This document shows, one piece after another, positions 3,858 through 35,739 of a stretch of DNA of 35,739 nucleotides. Below the pieces are notes generated by a model. It worked only from the letters and a program-made list of their open reading frames with translations, was not told the DNA's origin and searched no databases. Numbering within the stretch: the first letter of the stretch is position 1; each line of letters opens with the position of its first letter. Position numbers and translations under genes: made by a program. The DNA comes from a virus: the IMG/VR virus record IMGVR_UViG_3300047157_000009, positions 1-35,739 of that record. The stretch is one strand, 5' to 3'.

Positions 3858-5218
3858 TGTTTGGCTTCGCAGCAGTAGCAGAGACACCACTCTCAGCGGA
3901 ACTTACTAAGTACACCATAGGTGTTGTTCCTGCTTCCGTATCTGCAGCTTCTGCGTTAAACGCTCCCCAGTTCTCTGGTGGTGTTAATCTTCCTGCTTTA
4001 ACAGGGGTTTCTGCTACATTAACTAACACTGCACTTGACATTGACGGTAAAGCAAATATAACTACTGCTAACGTAGCAAGCACTACAAGCATAGCAGCAC
4101 TAACAATCTCAGGTAAAGCAAACGTTACGCACCCTTCACTACTAGGAACGTTTACACCTAACGTACCAAGCATAACAGGTATAGCTAATACAAACCTACC
4201 ATCACAAGGTGCTATCTCTGGTGCAGTCTTTGGTGACAATGTACAACCAACAGGACACAACTATACAGTAACAGTAGCTAATAGCGGAAGTGGTAACAAG
4301 TATTACATAGATGGTGTAGAGGCTGCAGCACTAACACTAACAAGAGGATTAACATACGTCTTTGATGTAAGTGACAACACTAACAGTGGACACCCATTTA
4401 GATTTAAAGATGCTTCTGGTAATACACTAACTACAGGAATAACTATAAGCGGAACAGCAGGACAGGCAGGGGCAACAGTAACTTACGTAGTTCCTGCTAC
4501 AGGCACACAGCCAGCATTGTATTACTGTACTGTACACGGCAACGGTATGGGCAATACTGTAACCACAGTAGCAAGCACCACAGCCTTTGTTGTAACTGTA
4601 GTAAATAGCGGTGGTAATAAGTTTGCTATAAATGGTGTCACTGCACCAACGCTACAACTTGTAAGAGGAACAACATACACATTTGATCTTAGTGATGCAT
4701 CTGTGTCTGGACACCCACTAGCCTTTAAGAGTGGCAACAATAGCTACACAGATGGTGTAACAAGCAGTGGTACTCCTGGTCAGTCTGGGGCAAGTGTAAC
4801 CTTTGCAGTACCAACCTCTGCACCTGGAATAGGACTAAGATACTACTGTACTGTACACGGTAACGGAATGGGTAACAGTATAACTACTAGCGGAGTACCT
4901 ATATCATTATCAGCGCAAGGTAAAGCTACACATACTCCTGCCTCTATATCTGCTGTAATAGATAAAGTAGTACCAAGCATAAGAGGATTAGCGTTCTTTA
5001 CATTACCTGATGTAAATGCTACTATAGCCCAGAACTTAGATGATCCTATTGGTGTACTCTTTCCATTTGATGACTTTGCAGATACATTTAGTAGAGGCAG
5101 AACGGTAGTAATAATAGCACCTACTATAGGTAATAGAACTGTATACATAGCTGCTGAAAATAGAACTGTAGTTATACGTCCTGTAAGAAGAGACAACGTA
5201 GTATACATAACTAATTAA
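3857..5218 (+). CDS. Virion protein with two cupredoxin-like domains
   Basis: A 453-residue protein. The N-terminal ~130 residues are A/S/T-rich with repeated (S/G)KAN(I/V)T elements. Two similar domains follow, residues ~133-240 and ~243-347. Each has a glycine-rich first strand (NKYYIDG, NKFAING), a SGHP loop and the ending YYCTVHGNGMGN. The positions match type 1 copper ligands: H179, C224, H227, M231 in the first and H286, C331, H334, M338 in the second, with 45 residues from His to Cys in both. The C-terminal ~60 residues are basic with repeated RTVxI motifs. The gene lies between fibre and tail-tube genes, so it is probably a tail or decoration protein. Whether it binds copper is unknown. 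Confidence 0.7.
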   Translation: MFGFAAVAETPLSAELTKYTIGVVPASVSAASALNAPQFSGGVNLPALTGVSATLTNTALDIDGKANITTANVASTTSIAALTISGKANVTHPSLLGTFTPNVPSITGIANTNLPSQGAISGAVFGDNVQPTGHNYTVTVANSGSGNKYYIDGVEAAALTLTRGLTYVFDVSDNTNSGHPFRFKDASGNTLTTGITISGTAGQAGATVTYVVPATGTQPALYYCTVHGNGMGNTVTTVASTTAFVVTVVNSGGNKFAINGVTAPTLQLVRGTTYTFDLSDASVSGHPLAFKSGNNSYTDGVTSSGTPGQSGASVTFAVPTSAPGIGLRYYCTVHGNGMGNSITTSGVPISLSAQGKATHTPASISAVIDKVVPSIRGLAFFTLPDVNATIAQNLDDPIGVLFPFDDFADTFSRGRTVVIIAPTIGNRTVYIAAENRTVVIRPVRRDNVVYITN

Positions 5219-31023: not shown

Positions 31024-32240
31024 GCTGAGTACACAGATCTGGAACCGTCAAGCACACAAGTAATCTTACCTTGGAAGCCATTCAGTTTGTTCTTGGCTAT
31101 GTTTAAGTATCTTATAGGATCATCCTCTTCTCCTTCTGCTTGTTGTGTCTTACCTATTAGTACCATGAGGTCAGCCTCTGCTGCCTTGCCTGTCTTACTA
31201 CCTTCCATCATAGCTTGGTTCAGGTCAGCCCTGCCCTCTGCTTCTGCTGATAGCTGAGACATCCATATCACAGAGCAGTCATACTGCTTGGCTATGTTAC
31301 GAGCATGGATAGCTGCTGCCTTGAGAGTTATGTCTGAGCGTTCTGACCTGATGTCTGCAAACTTATCACCCATATCCAGGATAAGTATATCAGGACGTTC
31401 ATACTTTACTACTGACTCAACCCAGTCCATACCCTTACCTGTGCTATCCTTGAACTGTATGTTCTCTGACACAGGGTGGTATCTCTTGTTAGCCAGTGCT
31501 TTGTTGGTACGTACCTCAGTCATTGTCATGTTAGATGAGGCACTGATGTATCGTGCAGCTACACGTGTGTAAGCTTCCTCATTGCACAGCACTGTAACCT
31601 TTGCACCTTGTTGTGCGAAGCCTCCGTCTGCTGCTACAAGTGAGGCGTGAAAGCTAGTCTTACCAGTATTAGGACGAGCGCCAACCAAGATAAGATGACC
31701 GCCACTGATACCCTCCACCCTACGAGCCAGACTGGATATGTTAAACTTCCATTTCGATTCAAGTGCCGTTGCATCAAGGATAGTATCAAGACTATGATCA
31801 TCCCACTCGACACGAAGATTTGGAGTAAAGTCATCTTTGTATTCCTCTAGTAGTTGACGTAAAGGTTCAAGGCTATTCTCTGCACCATTCACAAAGTCAA
31901 AGCCAAGGTTAGCTACAAGGTCACCAACGTGCTGCTGAAACAACTGAGACAATGTGTCCTCTGCTATCTCACCTTTGATAGGTTCAGCTATCTCAATACG
32001 CTTGAAGAGATCTTCATAAGCAGTACGTGTAGCGGTGGTCATGCTTGCATTGATACGGTTGAACACAGCCTGTAAGTCAGACACAGATAGGTCACCACCA
32101 TACGTATCCATAGCTGCATCTAGTGCTTGCTTTATCTTACGCACATCCTTGGTAAAGATTTTGTCAGGGCATCGTATGCCTTTGTGTTGATCGTAAAACT
32201 CTTTACTGAGTAGCGTCTTTAGTAGTGCTAGTTCCATCAT
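31020..32240 (-). CDS. DnaB-like replicative helicase
   Basis: A 406-residue helicase of superfamily 4. Walker A is GARPNTGKT (residues 187-195), a likely catalytic Glu lies in CNEEAY (220-224), Walker B ends at D289 (ILILDMGD), and the sensor Q329 is in IWMSQLS. MEGSKTGKAAEADLMVLI and the final ITCVLDGSRSVYSA fit the family. The first ~130 residues lack a TOPRIM, and the primase is a separate gene just upstream, unlike the fused T7 gp4. It would unwind DNA ahead of the polymerase. AGAGGAG lies ten bases upstream of the ATG at 32240; a second ATG at 32237 is possible. Stop overlaps the polymerase start. Confidence 0.9.
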   Translation of the reverse strand: MMELALLKTLLSKEFYDQHKGIRCPDKIFTKDVRKIKQALDAAMDTYGGDLSVSDLQAVFNRINASMTTATRTAYEDLFKRIEIAEPIKGEIAEDTLSQLFQQHVGDLVANLGFDFVNGAENSLEPLRQLLEEYKDDFTPNLRVEWDDHSLDTILDATALESKWKFNISSLARRVEGISGGHLILVGARPNTGKTSFHASLVAADGGFAQQGAKVTVLCNEEAYTRVAARYISASSNMTMTEVRTNKALANKRYHPVSENIQFKDSTGKGMDWVESVVKYERPDILILDMGDKFADIRSERSDITLKAAAIHARNIAKQYDCSVIWMSQLSAEAEGRADLNQAMMEGSKTGKAAEADLMVLIGKTQQAEGEEDDPIRYLNIAKNKLNGFQGKITCVLDGSRSVYSA

Positions 32241-32481
32241 CTCGATTCATCTCCTCTCGTTCCATTGATCTTCTTCGTTCCTCATCATCGAAGCTTCTTA
32301 CTATTGGTACAGTTTTATTTGTATCAAAGTCTACTATTATACCAGTGTTCCACTTAGCGCACTCCTCTTGTGCATCCTTTAAGTTGTAGAACAGTTTAGG
32401 TTTGGGGTAGTTCTCAAACACTGCACCCTCTGGTACATACATGATGTCACCATCAACGTCAATCACTATTGCTAATCTCAT
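32203..32481 (-). CDS. Hypothetical protein between primase and helicase (92 aa)
   Basis: A 92-residue protein. The first ~65 residues (MRLAIVIDVDGDIMYVPEGA, FYNLKDAQEECAKWNTGIIV, DFDTNKTVPI) resemble a small alpha/beta domain, and the tail is charged (DDEERRRSMEREEMNRDDGT). AAAGGAGTTATGTA is a strong ribosome binding site. It overlaps the primase by 23 bases and the helicase by 38, which supports a tightly linked set. A regulator or loader of the helicase is possible, but this is only position-based. Confidence 0.7.
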   Translation of the reverse strand: MRLAIVIDVDGDIMYVPEGAVFENYPKPKLFYNLKDAQEECAKWNTGIIVDFDTNKTVPIVRSFDDEERRRSMEREEMNRDDGTSTTKDATQ

Positions 32482-33298
32482 TACATAACTCCTTTAGTTT
32501 CTCTAAATCTTCTTCCATCTTATATTTGATATCATCTTGCAGGTTCATAGCAGTTGTCTTGCGTCCTGTCCACAACTCTATCTCTCTGCGATACTCTACT
32601 GTCTTACCAATAGCATCAGGATCAAGTGCAATGATTACCTTGTCATACTCACCTATCTTCTCAAAATGTTTGGGGTTCATTGACGTACCCAGGATAGCCA
32701 TAGCTGTGATGTATGGCATCTCTTGTACTGCAATCACAGCAGACACAACGTCCTCAACTATGAGCAGGGTAGAGCCAGTACCTATTGTGTAGTAGTCAGC
32801 CTCACCTGTGTAGCGATACCACTTAGGGTTCTGCTTCTTACCTACTGCCCTACCTACAGCATCAACGATCCTACCTTCATGCTTGATAGGAAAGACTACA
32901 CGTTCATCTTTGACATCATACATAGTCTCGCCCAACGCTATGCCCCAACGTCTTATGTAGCGTTGGTGCTTGGTGTGTGTTGCTTTAGGTGTGACTACAT
33001 ACTCAGGTATCTCCATAGTTTCTTTCACTTTCTTTATGTTTGTATATGCACGTTTAAATTGTAACTCATTCATGTGTAGGAATATCTCTGCTGCTGTCAT
33101 ACCAGTGTCGTATATACCACCAACCCTACAGCCTAGCTTGAAACAGTTGTACTTTATGTCACCAAATATATTAGCTACAGTAAATGTATTCTTACCTCGA
33201 CAGTCAGGGGCAGGACAGTCACACCTGTGACGTTCACCATCCTTGAGGTCAAGGCTATTGATAAACTCTCTGATGTTAGTCTTCTTCACGTACACCAT
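32459..33298 (-). CDS. DNA primase (zinc finger plus TOPRIM)
   Basis: A 279-residue primase. The N-terminal zinc-binding region has C26, C28, C33, C52 and C57 (RHRCDCPAPDC ... YNCFKLGC). A TOPRIM domain follows, with E182 (LLIVEDVVSA) and D226/D228 (VIIALDPDAIGK), the metal site of such primases. It would make RNA primers for the helicase-polymerase machine encoded downstream. The ATG at 33298, six bases after GAGGAG, is preferred over a GTG at 33337 with no ribosome binding site, which would add 13 residues. It overlaps the integrase end by 23 bases. Confidence 0.87.
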   Translation of the reverse strand: MVYVKKTNIREFINSLDLKDGERHRCDCPAPDCRGKNTFTVANIFGDIKYNCFKLGCRVGGIYDTGMTAAEIFLHMNELQFKRAYTNIKKVKETMEIPEYVVTPKATHTKHQRYIRRWGIALGETMYDVKDERVVFPIKHEGRIVDAVGRAVGKKQNPKWYRYTGEADYYTIGTGSTLLIVEDVVSAVIAVQEMPYITAMAILGTSMNPKHFEKIGEYDKVIIALDPDAIGKTVEYRREIELWTGRKTTAMNLQDDIKYKMEEDLEKLKELCNEISNSD

Positions 33299-34205
33299 GC
33301 TTAACTCCTCTCGCTGATAGTGCCTTGCTTGCACCACTGAATGTGTTGACCATGTATGGCTTGACTGATGCTGTATTCTGGTGGCCTGTCACCTGCATGA
33401 TACCCACCATATCAACACCACCTTCCATCATCTCAGTCACCGCTGTCCTACGTAGATCCATAGCCGTAAGTTCTTTAGGTAGATTAGCTTCGTCCAGGAT
33501 CTTATTGATATATAACGATACTTCCTCTTTGTCATAGGGTGTATATGCTCCTGCTCTTGGCTTGACTCTTGGTGCTACGTACTCTTGAAAGCCAAACTCC
33601 TCCTTCTGTTGACGTAACATTGAACACAAACCCTGAGAGATAGGGAGGTGTACCTCTGCATTACGTTTGCTCTGAGTCATATCAATACGACAATGGTTTA
33701 GGTCTAAACTATCCCATGTAAGTAGACGTATGTCACCTACACGTTGACCCCAGTCGTATGCCATATGCACAATCAGTCCAATGCTACGCCAACGAAAGTC
33801 ACTGTAAGATGTGTCAAGAAAGATTGACACTTGTTCACGGCTCCAATGTACTCTCCTTGGTTTTTCTGCAACAGTTTGCACCAAAGAGATTGGATTGTGT
33901 ATCATAACATCGTGTCGCATGGCATGTTTCCACGCAGCAGAAAGGACACTGCGTCTGTAGTTGGCGGTGCGAACACCAACGTTTAGCCATTGCTCATATG
34001 CTTGAGTGATGTGTCGAACCTTTAAGTTCTTACAGCGATATGCCCGAAGCATCTTGCCCTCTACCTCAGTAGTTAAGGTAGCACTCAGATGGTTGTCGTA
34101 GTCTTTTTGTGAGGAGGAGGACAACCTACGATACACATCTGAGTTACGGTAGAAGTTTATTACCTCTTCCAATGTGGCACTATGCTTCGGTATATTCTTT
34201 ACCAT
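33276..34205 (-). CDS. int: Tyrosine recombinase (phage integrase)
   Basis: A 309-residue integrase. The N-terminal ~110 residues match a SAM-like core-binding domain (SSSSQKDYDNHLSATL ... TANYRRSVLSAAWKHAM). The catalytic part has R155 (WGQRVGDIRLLTW), K180 (QSKRNAEVHLPI), R252 (MDLRRTAVTEM), H275 (VTGHQNTASV) and Y284 (KPYMV). The usual His in HxxR is Met249. It would insert or excise phage DNA at an att site, or act on concatemers. The ATG at 34205 follows GGTGAGG; an ATG at 34232 would add nine residues. It overlaps the primase gene. Confidence 0.88.
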   Translation of the reverse strand: MVKNIPKHSATLEEVINFYRNSDVYRRLSSSSQKDYDNHLSATLTTEVEGKMLRAYRCKNLKVRHITQAYEQWLNVGVRTANYRRSVLSAAWKHAMRHDVMIHNPISLVQTVAEKPRRVHWSREQVSIFLDTSYSDFRWRSIGLIVHMAYDWGQRVGDIRLLTWDSLDLNHCRIDMTQSKRNAEVHLPISQGLCSMLRQQKEEFGFQEYVAPRVKPRAGAYTPYDKEEVSLYINKILDEANLPKELTAMDLRRTAVTEMMEGGVDMVGIMQVTGHQNTASVKPYMVNTFSGASKALSARGVKHGVREED

Positions 34206-34289
34206 TTTTTCCTCACCTTCCAGTAAGCCCATGACCTACTACAATGTCCATCCCCTAGCAATGCGTCTAATGGACGCACTACATTAGGT
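34206..34289 (-). other. Short untranslated leader with inverted repeat before integrase
   Basis: These 84 bases between the 60-residue gene and the integrase start are the longest likely gap in the leftward block. They contain an inverted repeat gcgtc-taatg-gacgc (34263-34277) but no T run after it. It could hold an integrase promoter, operator or att core. None is proven, and a weak frame (34199-34459) crosses it. Confidence 0.35.
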
Positions 34290-34472
34290 TTATTGTTTCT
34301 CTTCCAGTCCCAGTTTCTTGCGGAGAAAGTTTGATTTAGTCTTCCTCCTAGTATTACGTTTGTTAGTACGCTCATCGCTATCAGTATCCTTACGAGGTAG
34401 GTTACCCACCCAGTGTGTGACATCATCGAAAGGCGTGTTCGGATTTTCTCCATCTTCACTTTCCACTTGCAT
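34290..34472 (-). CDS. Hypothetical charged protein (60 aa)
   Basis: A 60-residue hydrophilic protein: MQVESEDGENPNTPFDDVTH, then WVGNLPRKDTDSDERTNKRN, and a basic end (TRRKTKSNFLRKKLGLEEKQ). The codons strongly favour G or A in the first position (GAT, GAA, GTG, AAC), the pattern of a real gene, whereas an overlapping 86-residue frame (34199-34459, GTG start) looks like a shadow. It overlaps the 33-residue gene by 17 bases and has no clear ribosome binding site, so it may depend on translational coupling. The basic end suggests nucleic acid binding. Confidence 0.55.
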   Translation of the reverse strand: MQVESEDGENPNTPFDDVTHWVGNLPRKDTDSDERTNKRNTRRKTKSNFLRKKLGLEEKQ

Positions 34473-34557
34473 GTTTATACCATAAGTAAATCAATGCAGC
34501 AATGTTTACACCTGTAAATAGTAAAGGAAATGCTGCTGCTAAAAGTTCGGAACCCAT
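34456..34557 (-). CDS. Very small membrane peptide (33 aa)
   Basis: A 33-residue frame MGSELLAAAFPLLFTGVNIA followed by ALIYLWYKHASGK, one clear hydrophobic helix with a basic end. GGAGGGCATACT before the ATG at 34557 is a strong ribosome binding site, which supports translation. It overlaps both neighbours. It fits a single-pass inner membrane peptide; function unknown. Confidence 0.6.
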   Translation of the reverse strand: MGSELLAAAFPLLFTGVNIAALIYLWYKHASGK

Positions 34558-34709
34558 AGTATGCCCTCCTGTTTATCTTGTTCATATAGTTTTACTTCTT
34601 GCTCATGTAGCTTGGCTTCATCATCTTTGCCATCCCACCAAGCATCATCTGCCCTACGTCTACACTCGTTGAGTACCCTGTCTATGGGTATGACCTTACT
34701 GATCCTCAT
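34539..34709 (-). CDS. Small hypothetical protein (56 aa)
   Basis: A 56-residue soluble protein MRISKVIPIDRVLNECRRRA, then DDAWWDGKDDEAKLHEQEVK and LYEQDKQEGILWVPNF. GGAGGAGAGAGC before the ATG at 34709 is a strong ribosome binding site. The middle is a charged helix. It overlaps the neighbouring small genes by 14 and 19 bases. No family recognised. Confidence 0.65.
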   Translation of the reverse strand: MRISKVIPIDRVLNECRRRADDAWWDGKDDEAKLHEQEVKLYEQDKQEGILWVPNF

Positions 34710-34851
34710 GCTCTCTCCTCCTTATCTCTACAGTTAAGTCTTTGAATATATTTAGATACTTCAGTTCACAGGCAACCGCTTCCATGCGGTACTTGAATGA
34801 GTGGTAACCAAACCAATTACCATCCTTACCAAACCATACTTCATATGACAT
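34696..34851 (-). CDS. Small hypothetical protein (51 aa)
   Basis: A 51-residue protein MSYEVWFGKDGNWFGYHSFK, then YRMEAVACELKYLNIFKDLT and VEIRRREHEDQ. AAGGAGAAGTGCTG before the ATG at 34851 is a strong ribosome binding site, and the ATG shares a base with the TGA of the upstream gene. The sequence suggests a small beta-beta-alpha fold. Function unknown. Confidence 0.65.
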   Translation of the reverse strand: MSYEVWFGKDGNWFGYHSFKYRMEAVACELKYLNIFKDLTVEIRRREHEDQ

Positions 34852-35138
34852 CAGCACTTCTCCTTTTTAACTTTGTCAGCTCCTATGTAATAAGTTTTAC
34901 TCGATCCCCAACAAACGTCAAGAGGTTTTATTCTACCGTTAGGTAATGCCATGCCTGGGTACTTGTAGTGAGGGTTAGCTTTAAGGAACTCTCGTAAATC
35001 TTCTACCTCCATCTTGCGTTGGGCATGTTGTAACTCTTGGACACACGCTGCTCTGCCTGTCCAGTGATCATGCTTGGACATGCAATACTTGTGGATAGGG
35101 TTCTGTTCTTCAATCACTGCTATTAGTAGCTCTATCAT
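34851..35138 (-). CDS. Hypothetical protein (95 aa)
   Basis: A 95-residue protein. A helical start (MIELLIAVIEEQNPIHKYCM) is followed by SKHDHWTGRAACVQELQHAQ and NPHYKYPGMALPNGRIKPLD, and it ends KVKKEKC. AAGGATTGATAG is a good ribosome binding site. Four cysteines are present (C19, C32, C76 and C95), but the spacing fits no zinc site I know. It overlaps the upstream gene by 29 bases. Function unknown. Confidence 0.65.
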   Translation of the reverse strand: MIELLIAVIEEQNPIHKYCMSKHDHWTGRAACVQELQHAQRKMEVEDLREFLKANPHYKYPGMALPNGRIKPLDVCWGSSKTYYIGADKVKKEKC

Positions 35139-35439
35139 CTATCAATCCTTTCCTTAACATTTCTTTTGCATCATCATACTGGCCTCGACACATACATCTT
35201 GTGTCATGCGCCCACCTAAACCATGACATTGCTTTCTTATCCATATGTATTAGGTTCATCTCTCCATAGTCTTCCTTACCGTTACTAGTATAGGAGGCAA
35301 CCTGATGGAGGTTAAGGAACTTCAGCAGGTTAGGCTTGTCCACTGGTACATCCACAGTACTGTAGTCTTTGCCACACATCTTACGTGCGTCAGCTTGTGT
35401 ACCTGCCCATACACCATTAGAGTTTTTGTATAGTTTCAT
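35110..35439 (-). CDS. Hypothetical protein (109 aa)
   Basis: A 109-residue protein beginning MKLYKNSNGVWAGTQADARK. The opening resembles small early proteins of marine phages that start M(K/R)LY.N..G.W.GTQ, with DVPVDKPNLLKFLN after it. The rest is mixed helix and strand and ends DDRATNSSD. AGGAGAGGAAGAGAC is a good ribosome binding site. It overlaps the neighbours at both ends. No function is known to me. Confidence 0.65.
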   Translation of the reverse strand: MKLYKNSNGVWAGTQADARKMCGKDYSTVDVPVDKPNLLKFLNLHQVASYTSNGKEDYGEMNLIHMDKKAMSWFRWAHDTRCMCRGQYDDAKEMLRKGLIDDRATNSSD

Positions 35440-35644
35440 GTCTCTTCCTCTCCTGTGTTGTCACACAATATACTCCTGCGACTTTCACATTGAAACCTGC
35501 ATGAGCTATAACCTCTACAGCAAGTTCGTCTGCGTTACTCAAGTCACTTACATACTGCACACAACCATCCTCCGTGTCAAATGATTTATTAGGTATGGTA
35601 AAAGGATTACCCTGTGTCAGTGCTATTAGTATGAGCCATTTCAT
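35417..35644 (-). CDS. Small exported-looking protein (75 aa)
   Basis: A 75-residue protein with a short hydrophobic start (MKWLILIALTQGNPFTIPNK), an acidic middle (FDTEDGCVQYVSDLSNADEL) and two cysteines (C28 and C59). It has the same plan as the 65-residue gene at 23081-23278. AAGGAGAGTACAA is a strong ribosome binding site. A periplasmic or membrane location is possible, since the hydrophobic stretch is only about nine residues. Function unknown. Confidence 0.6.
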   Translation of the reverse strand: MKWLILIALTQGNPFTIPNKSFDTEDGCVQYVSDLSNADELAVEVIAHAGFNVKVAGVYCVTTQERKRHETIQKL

Positions 35645-35739
35645 TTGTACTCTCCTTAAATTTATCTCTAGCTACACCTGTATCCTTAGATAGTTTATCA
35701 GCTATGGCCTTTGCAATTTCTTTATCATCACAATCAATA
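35607..35739 (-). CDS. Hypothetical protein, 5' end cut by window edge
   Basis: A leftward frame that stays open from base 35738 to the TAA at 35609-35607, giving the last 44 residues: IDCDDKEIAKAIADKLSKDT, then GVARDKFKESTNEMAHTNST and DTG. The start lies outside the window. It overlaps the next gene by 38 bases. The charged, helical sequence gives no family clue, and its reality rests mainly on frame and the tight packing of this block. Confidence 0.45.
   Translation of the reverse strand, partial: IDCDDKEIAKAIADKLSKDTGVARDKFKESTNEMAHTNSTDTG

Follow-up and report, generated by a model that had tools for sequence, protein, structure and literature searches.

Results

An overlapping gene pair precedes the integrase

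The stretch of viral DNA analyzed here, IMG/VR record IMGVR_UViG_3300047157_000009 (the window), is a linear fragment of 35,739 bases. At its right end lies a tightly packed chain of leftward genes, followed by a tyrosine integrase, a primase, and the rest of the leftward block. The original prediction had counted eight small frames in this chain, and all eight are present (designated A through H). The last of these, H (34290..34472, minus strand), encodes 60 residues and is out of frame with a gene absent from the earlier gene list, which we designate I (34199..34459, minus strand). I encodes 84–86 residues, according to whether it starts at ATG 34453 or GTG 34459, and has one predicted membrane span. 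The two frames overlap by 164 nucleotides, with I, from ATG 34453, in the +1 frame relative to H. Residues P14–P26 of H (PFDDVTHWVGNLP; 34395..34433, minus strand) form a motif whose DNA is read in both frames. The first 26 residues of H carry a net charge of −6 and the remainder a net charge of +7. No family match to H was found in Pfam (E value up to 10), NCBIfam, or PHROGs (up to 1), and a 26-residue form of the motif had no match in Pfam, PDB, or PHROGs (up to 10).

The motif is constrained in the frame of H

Relatives of the window were IMG/VR loci retrieved by means of the integrase, of which the best 80 of 87 were used (L numbers designate these and the other loci compared here). Ratios of nonsynonymous to synonymous polymorphism (pN/pS) were computed only from homologues of at least 55% identity and similar length, the reference value being that of the integrase (0.29). 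Over its whole length H looked neutral (0.96), and the same DNA gave 0.29 in the frame of I. We therefore followed the ratio ω along the overlap in both frames (ωH and ωI, 49 sequences). Over the 11 codons of DDVTHWVGNLP, both frames were constrained (ωH 0.37, ωI 0.57). The six codons before the motif gave a weak signal in H (ωH 0.84, ωI 0.45), and beyond the motif constraint lay with I alone, both over the membrane span (ωH 2.0, ωI 0.32) and over the stretch NQTFSARN (ωH 4.7, ωI 0.06).

The positions at which substitutions fell within codons told the same story. Parsimony events were counted on a tree built from 72 distinct sequences. Those in the motif were distributed over positions 1, 2, and 3 of H as 28:7:50. 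In DNA belonging to I only, events in the same phases were distributed as 164:58:37, that is, on position 3 of I, and this differed from the motif with a Fisher p of 6e-13. Comparisons of the motif with other parts of I in the same 72 sequences gave p values of 2e-15 and 2e-16, and the same test for the six codons before the motif gave 4e-5. From the segment-by-segment selection and the codon positions of the events, we conclude that the motif is real coding sequence in the frame of H, that both frames are constrained there, and that the tail of H is a shadow of I. Thus, the core D-D-x-T-H-W-x-G is conserved at the protein level in H's own frame, whereas the last 34 or so residues of H are unconstrained.

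The distance from the motif to the NQTFSARN stretch of I was exactly 91 nucleotides in all 59 sequences that had both (75 had the anchor). When I was randomly recoded with its protein kept, H stayed open in 2.9% of the recodings and the motif arose in 0.4%.

H and I occur separately

I encodes a conserved small membrane protein, its span being predicted by hydropathy. Its C-terminal part reads NQTFSARN..HC...W..W, its pN/pS was 0.28 over 54 sequences, and its residues 19–86 matched positions 8–80 of the 90-position profile phrog_3342, a family without an assigned function (E value 5.3e-14). Homologues are present in SIO1, P12053L, ICBM1, ICBM2, and CRP-9; these share the membrane span and the NQTFSARN..HC...W core with the I of the window but, unlike it, have no overlapping H motif. 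In all, 16 of 75 sequences had I without the motif, including L057–L059, L062, L074–L080, and the five phages just named. CRP-9 has I at one place and, elsewhere, a 38-residue H-like frame with a TTG start that overlaps gp19 at its end and gp20 at its start. Conversely, H was found without I in L236, L237, L238, and L240 (three distinct sequences). Because each occurs without the other, we consider H and I to be two genes. Rz and Rz1 are a known pair of overlapping viral genes, out of frame with each other. H/I resembles them in being an out-of-frame overlap that involves a small membrane protein. It differs from them in that the motif part of H also occurs by itself, and no lipoprotein or lysis feature was seen, although none was searched for.

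Existing annotations are uneven. In CRP-603 gp17 is the H frame and in CRP-2 gp18 is the I frame, the overlapping partner being unannotated in both records. The I homologue of SIO1 is wholly unannotated, and that of the Lentibacter phage ICBM2 (L086:2224–2445) is labelled tRNA pseudouridine synthase D, a label that is almost certainly wrong, given that a length of 73 residues does not support it.

The motif defines a family of microproteins

Three DNA pattern scans of IMG/VR and one profile scan found the peptide in further settings. In all there are 128 distinct instances of the motif, 66 of them over I and 62 not over I (one of the latter, in L263, is probably due to chance). The family usually ends at its C terminus in D-D-P-C/H-D-D-V-T-H-W-I/L-G-x-I/L. 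Free-standing forms are mostly 15–28 residues long. The family as a whole is found in marine phages that are otherwise unrelated, and its gene settings number at least six. Among these settings are a position before an integrase without I; genes for 15–28 residues in contigs with a topoisomerase II large subunit, an SbcC-like exonuclease, and a tail sheath (contigs that, to judge from the gene families they carry, appear to be T4-like); a position in CRP-6 before a gene annotated as a cell wall hydrolase; and a position between helicase-primase and DNA polymerase, including in the Cobavirus CRP-4. The smallest forms are MDDPCDDVTHWIGYI (L300) and MSQCDDPHDDVTHWIGKL, the 18-residue product of an unannotated micro-gene in CRP-6 (MK613348.1, 1242–1298). 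The start of that micro-gene overlaps the preceding stop, and its stop overlaps the next start. It has the same motif as H, in a gene of its own; unlike H, it lacks a tail and a long overlap with another gene, and it lies in a different phage group.

The second pattern scan fixed nothing downstream of the tryptophan, and we read 80 of the 86 stretches that it reported. A glycine stood two residues after the tryptophan in 71 of the 80, and in 34 of 55 stretches not over I a stop stood exactly at the fifth codon after it. H of the window departs from a stop two residues after the glycine: 37 residues follow, overlapping I. Codons varied while the residues stayed constant: among the 62 instances not over I, threonine, valine, and glycine were each encoded by four codons, and each aspartate and the histidine by two (the D, V, T, and H residues were set by the scan patterns, but these codon choices were not). 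A switch of frame was again seen in the helicase-polymerase setting, where variable columns fell on the three codon positions as 4:4:9 at the motif versus 2:18:2 over the helicase (15 sequences). The motif is unlikely to be part of an attachment site, because it is also found without an adjoining integrase and its third codon positions vary.

Outside phages, two patterns found no match to the motif in 84,980 prokaryote genomes, the second pattern requiring a stop at a fixed place, so that diverged tails would be missed. There was likewise no match in the PLSDB plasmids, and none of four motif strings occurred in the library of papers searched.

Cultured carriers infect pelagic roseobacters

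With a joined query, tblastn identified five carriers among 50,697 phage records, CRP-9, CRP-6, CRP-603, CRP-2, and CRP-4 (E values 1e-4 to 9), all of which infect FZCC pelagic roseobacters; other tblastn queries gave subsets of the five. One query also gave a weak match to EBPR siphovirus 1 (47% over 19 residues), which we took as chance. Phages of FZCC strains were also read directly, and 5 of 15 had the motif. One survey pattern was stricter after the tryptophan and missed CRP-603, which was read directly; matches in CRP-2 (at 51733), CRP-1, CRP-13, and a second place in CRP-4 were counted as non-motif from six residues alone. A pattern search found no motif in HMO-2011, CRP-207, SIO1, P12053L, ICBM1, or ICBM2. 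According to PMC9038755 and PMC6918029, the strains FZCC0040 and FZCC0042 belong to the RCA roseobacters, FZCC0012 lies near HIMB11, and CRP-6 belongs to a separate mosaic group.

The remaining small genes are conserved and variable by allele

The original prediction had made its case depend on the conservation of the reading frames among relatives, and they are conserved. Among relatives with at least 80% integrase identity and enough upstream DNA, H and I were each present in 53 of 53, F in 52 of 52, D in 48 of 48, C in 43 of 43, E in 48 of 51, G in 38 of 52, and B in 27 of 40. Below 80% identity only I (15/17) and F (13/15) were common, H being present in 3 of 17 loci, G in 2 of 16, E in 0 of 13, D in 0 of 10, and C and B in 0 of 7 each. 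A few rearrangements aside, the homologues of B through I keep the same order. Values of pN/pS were 0.33 for B, 0.38 for C, 0.18 for D, 0.34 for E, 0.30 for F, and 0.47 for G (the last on 7 sequences), as compared with 0.92–1.57 when the sense strand was read in either shifted frame. Of the reverse frames, one out of three was also low (0.33–0.66), as expected of a shadow. Thus, B through G are under purifying selection. We regard A through G as conserved small genes of an ordinary kind, variable by allele, that occupy the region before the integrase.

All seven are on the minus strand. A (35607..35738) runs off the end of the window, so that only the 3′ portion of this small gene is present; it has homologues in only five relatives, which read MEIIIDC or MEIIIDA..DKFKE.. 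B (35417..35644) encodes 75 residues with two invariant cysteines, has GGAG upstream, and was matched in 30 relatives. C (35110..35439; 109 residues, 47 relatives) is conserved over its N-terminal half and TPR-like toward its C terminus; its profile resembles designed TPR proteins in PDB (best E value 3e-7 for the whole sequence, with no single stretch passing), its alignment had only weak matches in PHROGs, and its AlphaFold model was of low confidence (pLDDT 61). D (34851..35138; 95 residues, 52 relatives) has four invariant cysteines (19, 32, 76, and 95) and a weak WhiB-like match in PHROGs for 37 of 38 members (best E value 0.005, window copy 0.012); it is possibly a small metal-binding regulator, to judge from these cysteines and this match. 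Its AlphaFold model (pLDDT 72.5) had no fold match in PDB at an E value of 0.001 or less. E (34696..34851; 51 residues from ATG 34851, 48 relatives) has a start that overlaps the stop of D. F (34539..34709; 56 residues, matches at 66 loci) ends in G..W.P.F, is invariant at D21, D22, W25, G49, W52, and F56 among 26 aligned sequences, is present also in CRP-2, CRP-603, and CRP-207, and had only scattered single-member matches in PHROGs, down to an E value of 0.005. G (34456..34557; 33 residues, 40 relatives) encodes a hydrophobic microprotein with one predicted membrane span (mean hydropathy 2.14 over 19 residues).

No NCBIfam or PADLOC match to B through H was found at an E value of 1 or less, and Pfam matches were at chance level only. 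The statement that none of the small genes is recognized thus stands for the scanned frames B through H and fails for the unlisted gene I, the sole member of a described family among them. PADLOC, which covers defence proteins and not their inhibitors, also gave no match to I at that threshold, and profile searches of PDB with D and I gave nothing convincing. A strong ribosome-binding site or an overlapping start had been ascribed to every gene; by eye, Shine-Dalgarno–like sequences lie upstream of B through G, whereas none precedes H, whose start lies within G.

A few loci depart from the common arrangement. In L065 a D homologue (47%; 714–989) lies between I and the integrase rather than upstream of E, a rearranged order. 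Gaps wider than those of the window, from a few hundred to about 1000 bases, separate C from D in L041, L046, L048, and L052, I from the integrase in L027 and L062, and F from I in L013; the gaps, which may hold extra small genes, point to insertion-prone junctions. In CRP-207 (L089, about 4360–4460) gp14 is overlapped at its end by an unannotated frame for a G-like membrane microprotein (MVPNFLMHLLPLTLCVAYLGGGFYLWYRH..).

The block continues upstream of the window

The integrase (33276..34232, minus strand; PF00589, E value 5.8e-20) lies downstream of the small genes. Its start is probably ATG 34205, which is preceded by a good ribosome-binding site (GGTGAGG), rather than the first ATG at 34232. 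It is 73% identical to the integrase of CRP-207, 60% to that of CRP-603, 58% to that of CRP-2, and 43% to that of HMO-2011; on the first and last of these values we take the window to be a fragment of an HMO-2011-type phage. The order of small genes, integrase, and primase in these four phages is also that of the window, which has an integrase homologous to the group's upstream of the primase and the replication module. The group, and the placement of its integrase upstream of the replication module, are described in PMC9038755, and PMC6918029 reports a partial DnaJ domain in the group's DNA polymerase.

The small genes had been placed at the early end of the leftward block, and this does not hold, as the window is a fragment and upstream genes continue in L081. 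There, in part of a relative 57 kb long, the operon's frames start some 3.7 kb upstream of C, and in cultured relatives some 4–5 kb of genes, most of them small, precede the integrase, a methyltransferase being among them in CRP-2, CRP-207, and CRP-603. Early transcription of the block is plausible from gene order. A promoter search of positions 32000–35739 returned 5 promoter-like sites, as compared with 8.1 expected by shuffling.

Discussion

Our results are consistent with an account that we consider evenly balanced between right and wrong: H and I are two genes, the peptide of H is a binding motif for a conserved protein, most likely of the host, and A through G are ordinary genes of the region. 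The peptide behaves like a short linear binding motif in that its fixed part of 12–14 residues is found, at a terminus or internally, in unrelated phages. It would dock on one conserved protein, most likely the bacterial host's, by way of its acidic residues and the His-Trp pair, and docking would inhibit or redirect that partner. With only some 14 residues needed, phages can carry the peptide in either of two ways, in a free micro-gene that is coupled to the gene after it or out of frame on top of another gene. That the partner belongs to the host is suggested by the host pattern together with the differing replication genes of the carriers; host takeover or anti-defence had been raised as a role for genes at this position, and the host pattern lends indirect support to a host-directed role of H only. 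We also suggest, tentatively and with more doubt than confidence, that the peptide is a plug-in of about 14 residues that binds one host protein, that its spread extends across unrelated pelagic roseobacter phages (HMO-2011-type, Cobavirus, CRP-6-type, and, probably, T4-like phages), and that its retention depends on the host strain. Such a peptide would be small enough to be overprinted on other genes and would mostly have escaped annotation.

Several observations weigh against this account. The translation of H is predicted from sequence; H has no Shine-Dalgarno–like sequence, its start is embedded in G, and its openness is in itself weak evidence, given how often it survives recoding. In L074–L080 the frame of H is open but the THW core is lost, and 9 of the 80 stretches read lack the glycine. 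In the helicase-polymerase setting the nearest in-frame start is usually 45 codons upstream (an ATG in 15 of 15 sequences and in CRP-4), with nearer starts in L285 (18 codons) and L290 (25 codons) and a different arrangement in L366 and L370. Some forms may be expressed late, since late-promoter–like sequences of the type AATAAATA precede 6 of the 62 instances not over I (L260, L280, L309, L331, L345, and L351). The idea that the motif is the tail of a host protein was rejected, neither pattern having matched in the 84,980 genomes, although the second would miss diverged tails. As to hosts, the motif must be dispensable, for 10 of the 15 FZCC phages do without it. By strain it was present in 0 of 5 phages of FZCC0040, 3 of 5 of FZCC0023, 1 of 3 of FZCC0042, 1 of 1 of FZCC0012, and 0 of 1 of FZCC0089, all small counts (CRP-4, on FZCC0023, has it, and CRP-5, on FZCC0040, does not). 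The host pattern covers cultured carriers only, not the T4-like contigs, and may be a sampling effect, because tblastn is insensitive with so short a query.

The strongest rival is that the partner of the motif is a protein of the phage, such as a component of the replication machinery, instead of a host protein. It would fit the frequent position of the motif beside a polymerase (CRP-4), a topoisomerase II large subunit, or an integrase, but the replication genes of the carriers differ (T4-like topoisomerase, L241-type helicase-primase, HMO-2011-type) while the cultured carriers share a host group, and we judge it unlikely, if worth keeping in mind. Next in rank, and somewhat less probable still, is a leader or coupling peptide, with the micro-gene regulating the following gene by ribosome arrest or plain translational coupling. 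Of 30 copies with a terminal motif that were examined, several of them near-identical and six CRP-6-like, 27 had a frame after them, and in 16 of these 27 the stop codon shared one base with the start of that frame. The genes that follow are, however, various: the annotated cell wall hydrolase of CRP-6, a topoisomerase II large subunit, and frames that we named by eye as polymerase-like and Nudix-like. Moreover, the tails that follow the motif range from 2 to over 25 residues, which does not suit arrest at a fixed codon, and I of the window can start upstream of the motif. An ordinary mosaic of small genes without a common theme, which is the original prediction less its host-takeover part, describes A through G well but leaves the presence of the H motif in unrelated phages unexplained, and we consider it improbable as an account of the whole.

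Two further possibilities concern the overlap itself. H and I could be one protein made by programmed +1 frameshifting, the acidic leader of H being joined to the membrane span of I; constraint does pass from the frame of H to that of I where the span begins, as in frameshift genes. We rejected such a fusion and hold it to be very improbable: I stands without the motif in the 16 sequences noted above and starts at the span in L057, SIO1, ICBM1, ICBM2, and P12053L, H exists without I, and by eye we saw no shared slippery site. Alternatively, H might not be a gene at all, its frame being open largely because the hydrophobic codons of I cannot make stops there and the motif being a by-product. 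The near-neutral pN/pS of H as a whole and its chance of staying open on recoding would accord with this. It is nevertheless strongly disfavored, and the least probable of the alternatives, because the excess of position-3 changes is present in the motif, weaker in the six codons before it, and absent further on, and because the same peptide occurs in settings without I.

Finally, we return to the reading of H as a binding motif. Small genes are abundant in phages and testable leads among them are rare; a peptide of some 14 residues, nearly unchanged between unrelated phages and their different wrappers, could be synthesized, immobilized, and offered as bait to its partner in cultured roseobacters. 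The locus also illustrates that conserved viral genes of 15–60 codons can escape annotation, the out-of-frame H having hidden I from the earlier gene list. If the partner is a host protein, the peptide would name a weak point of abundant ocean bacteria.

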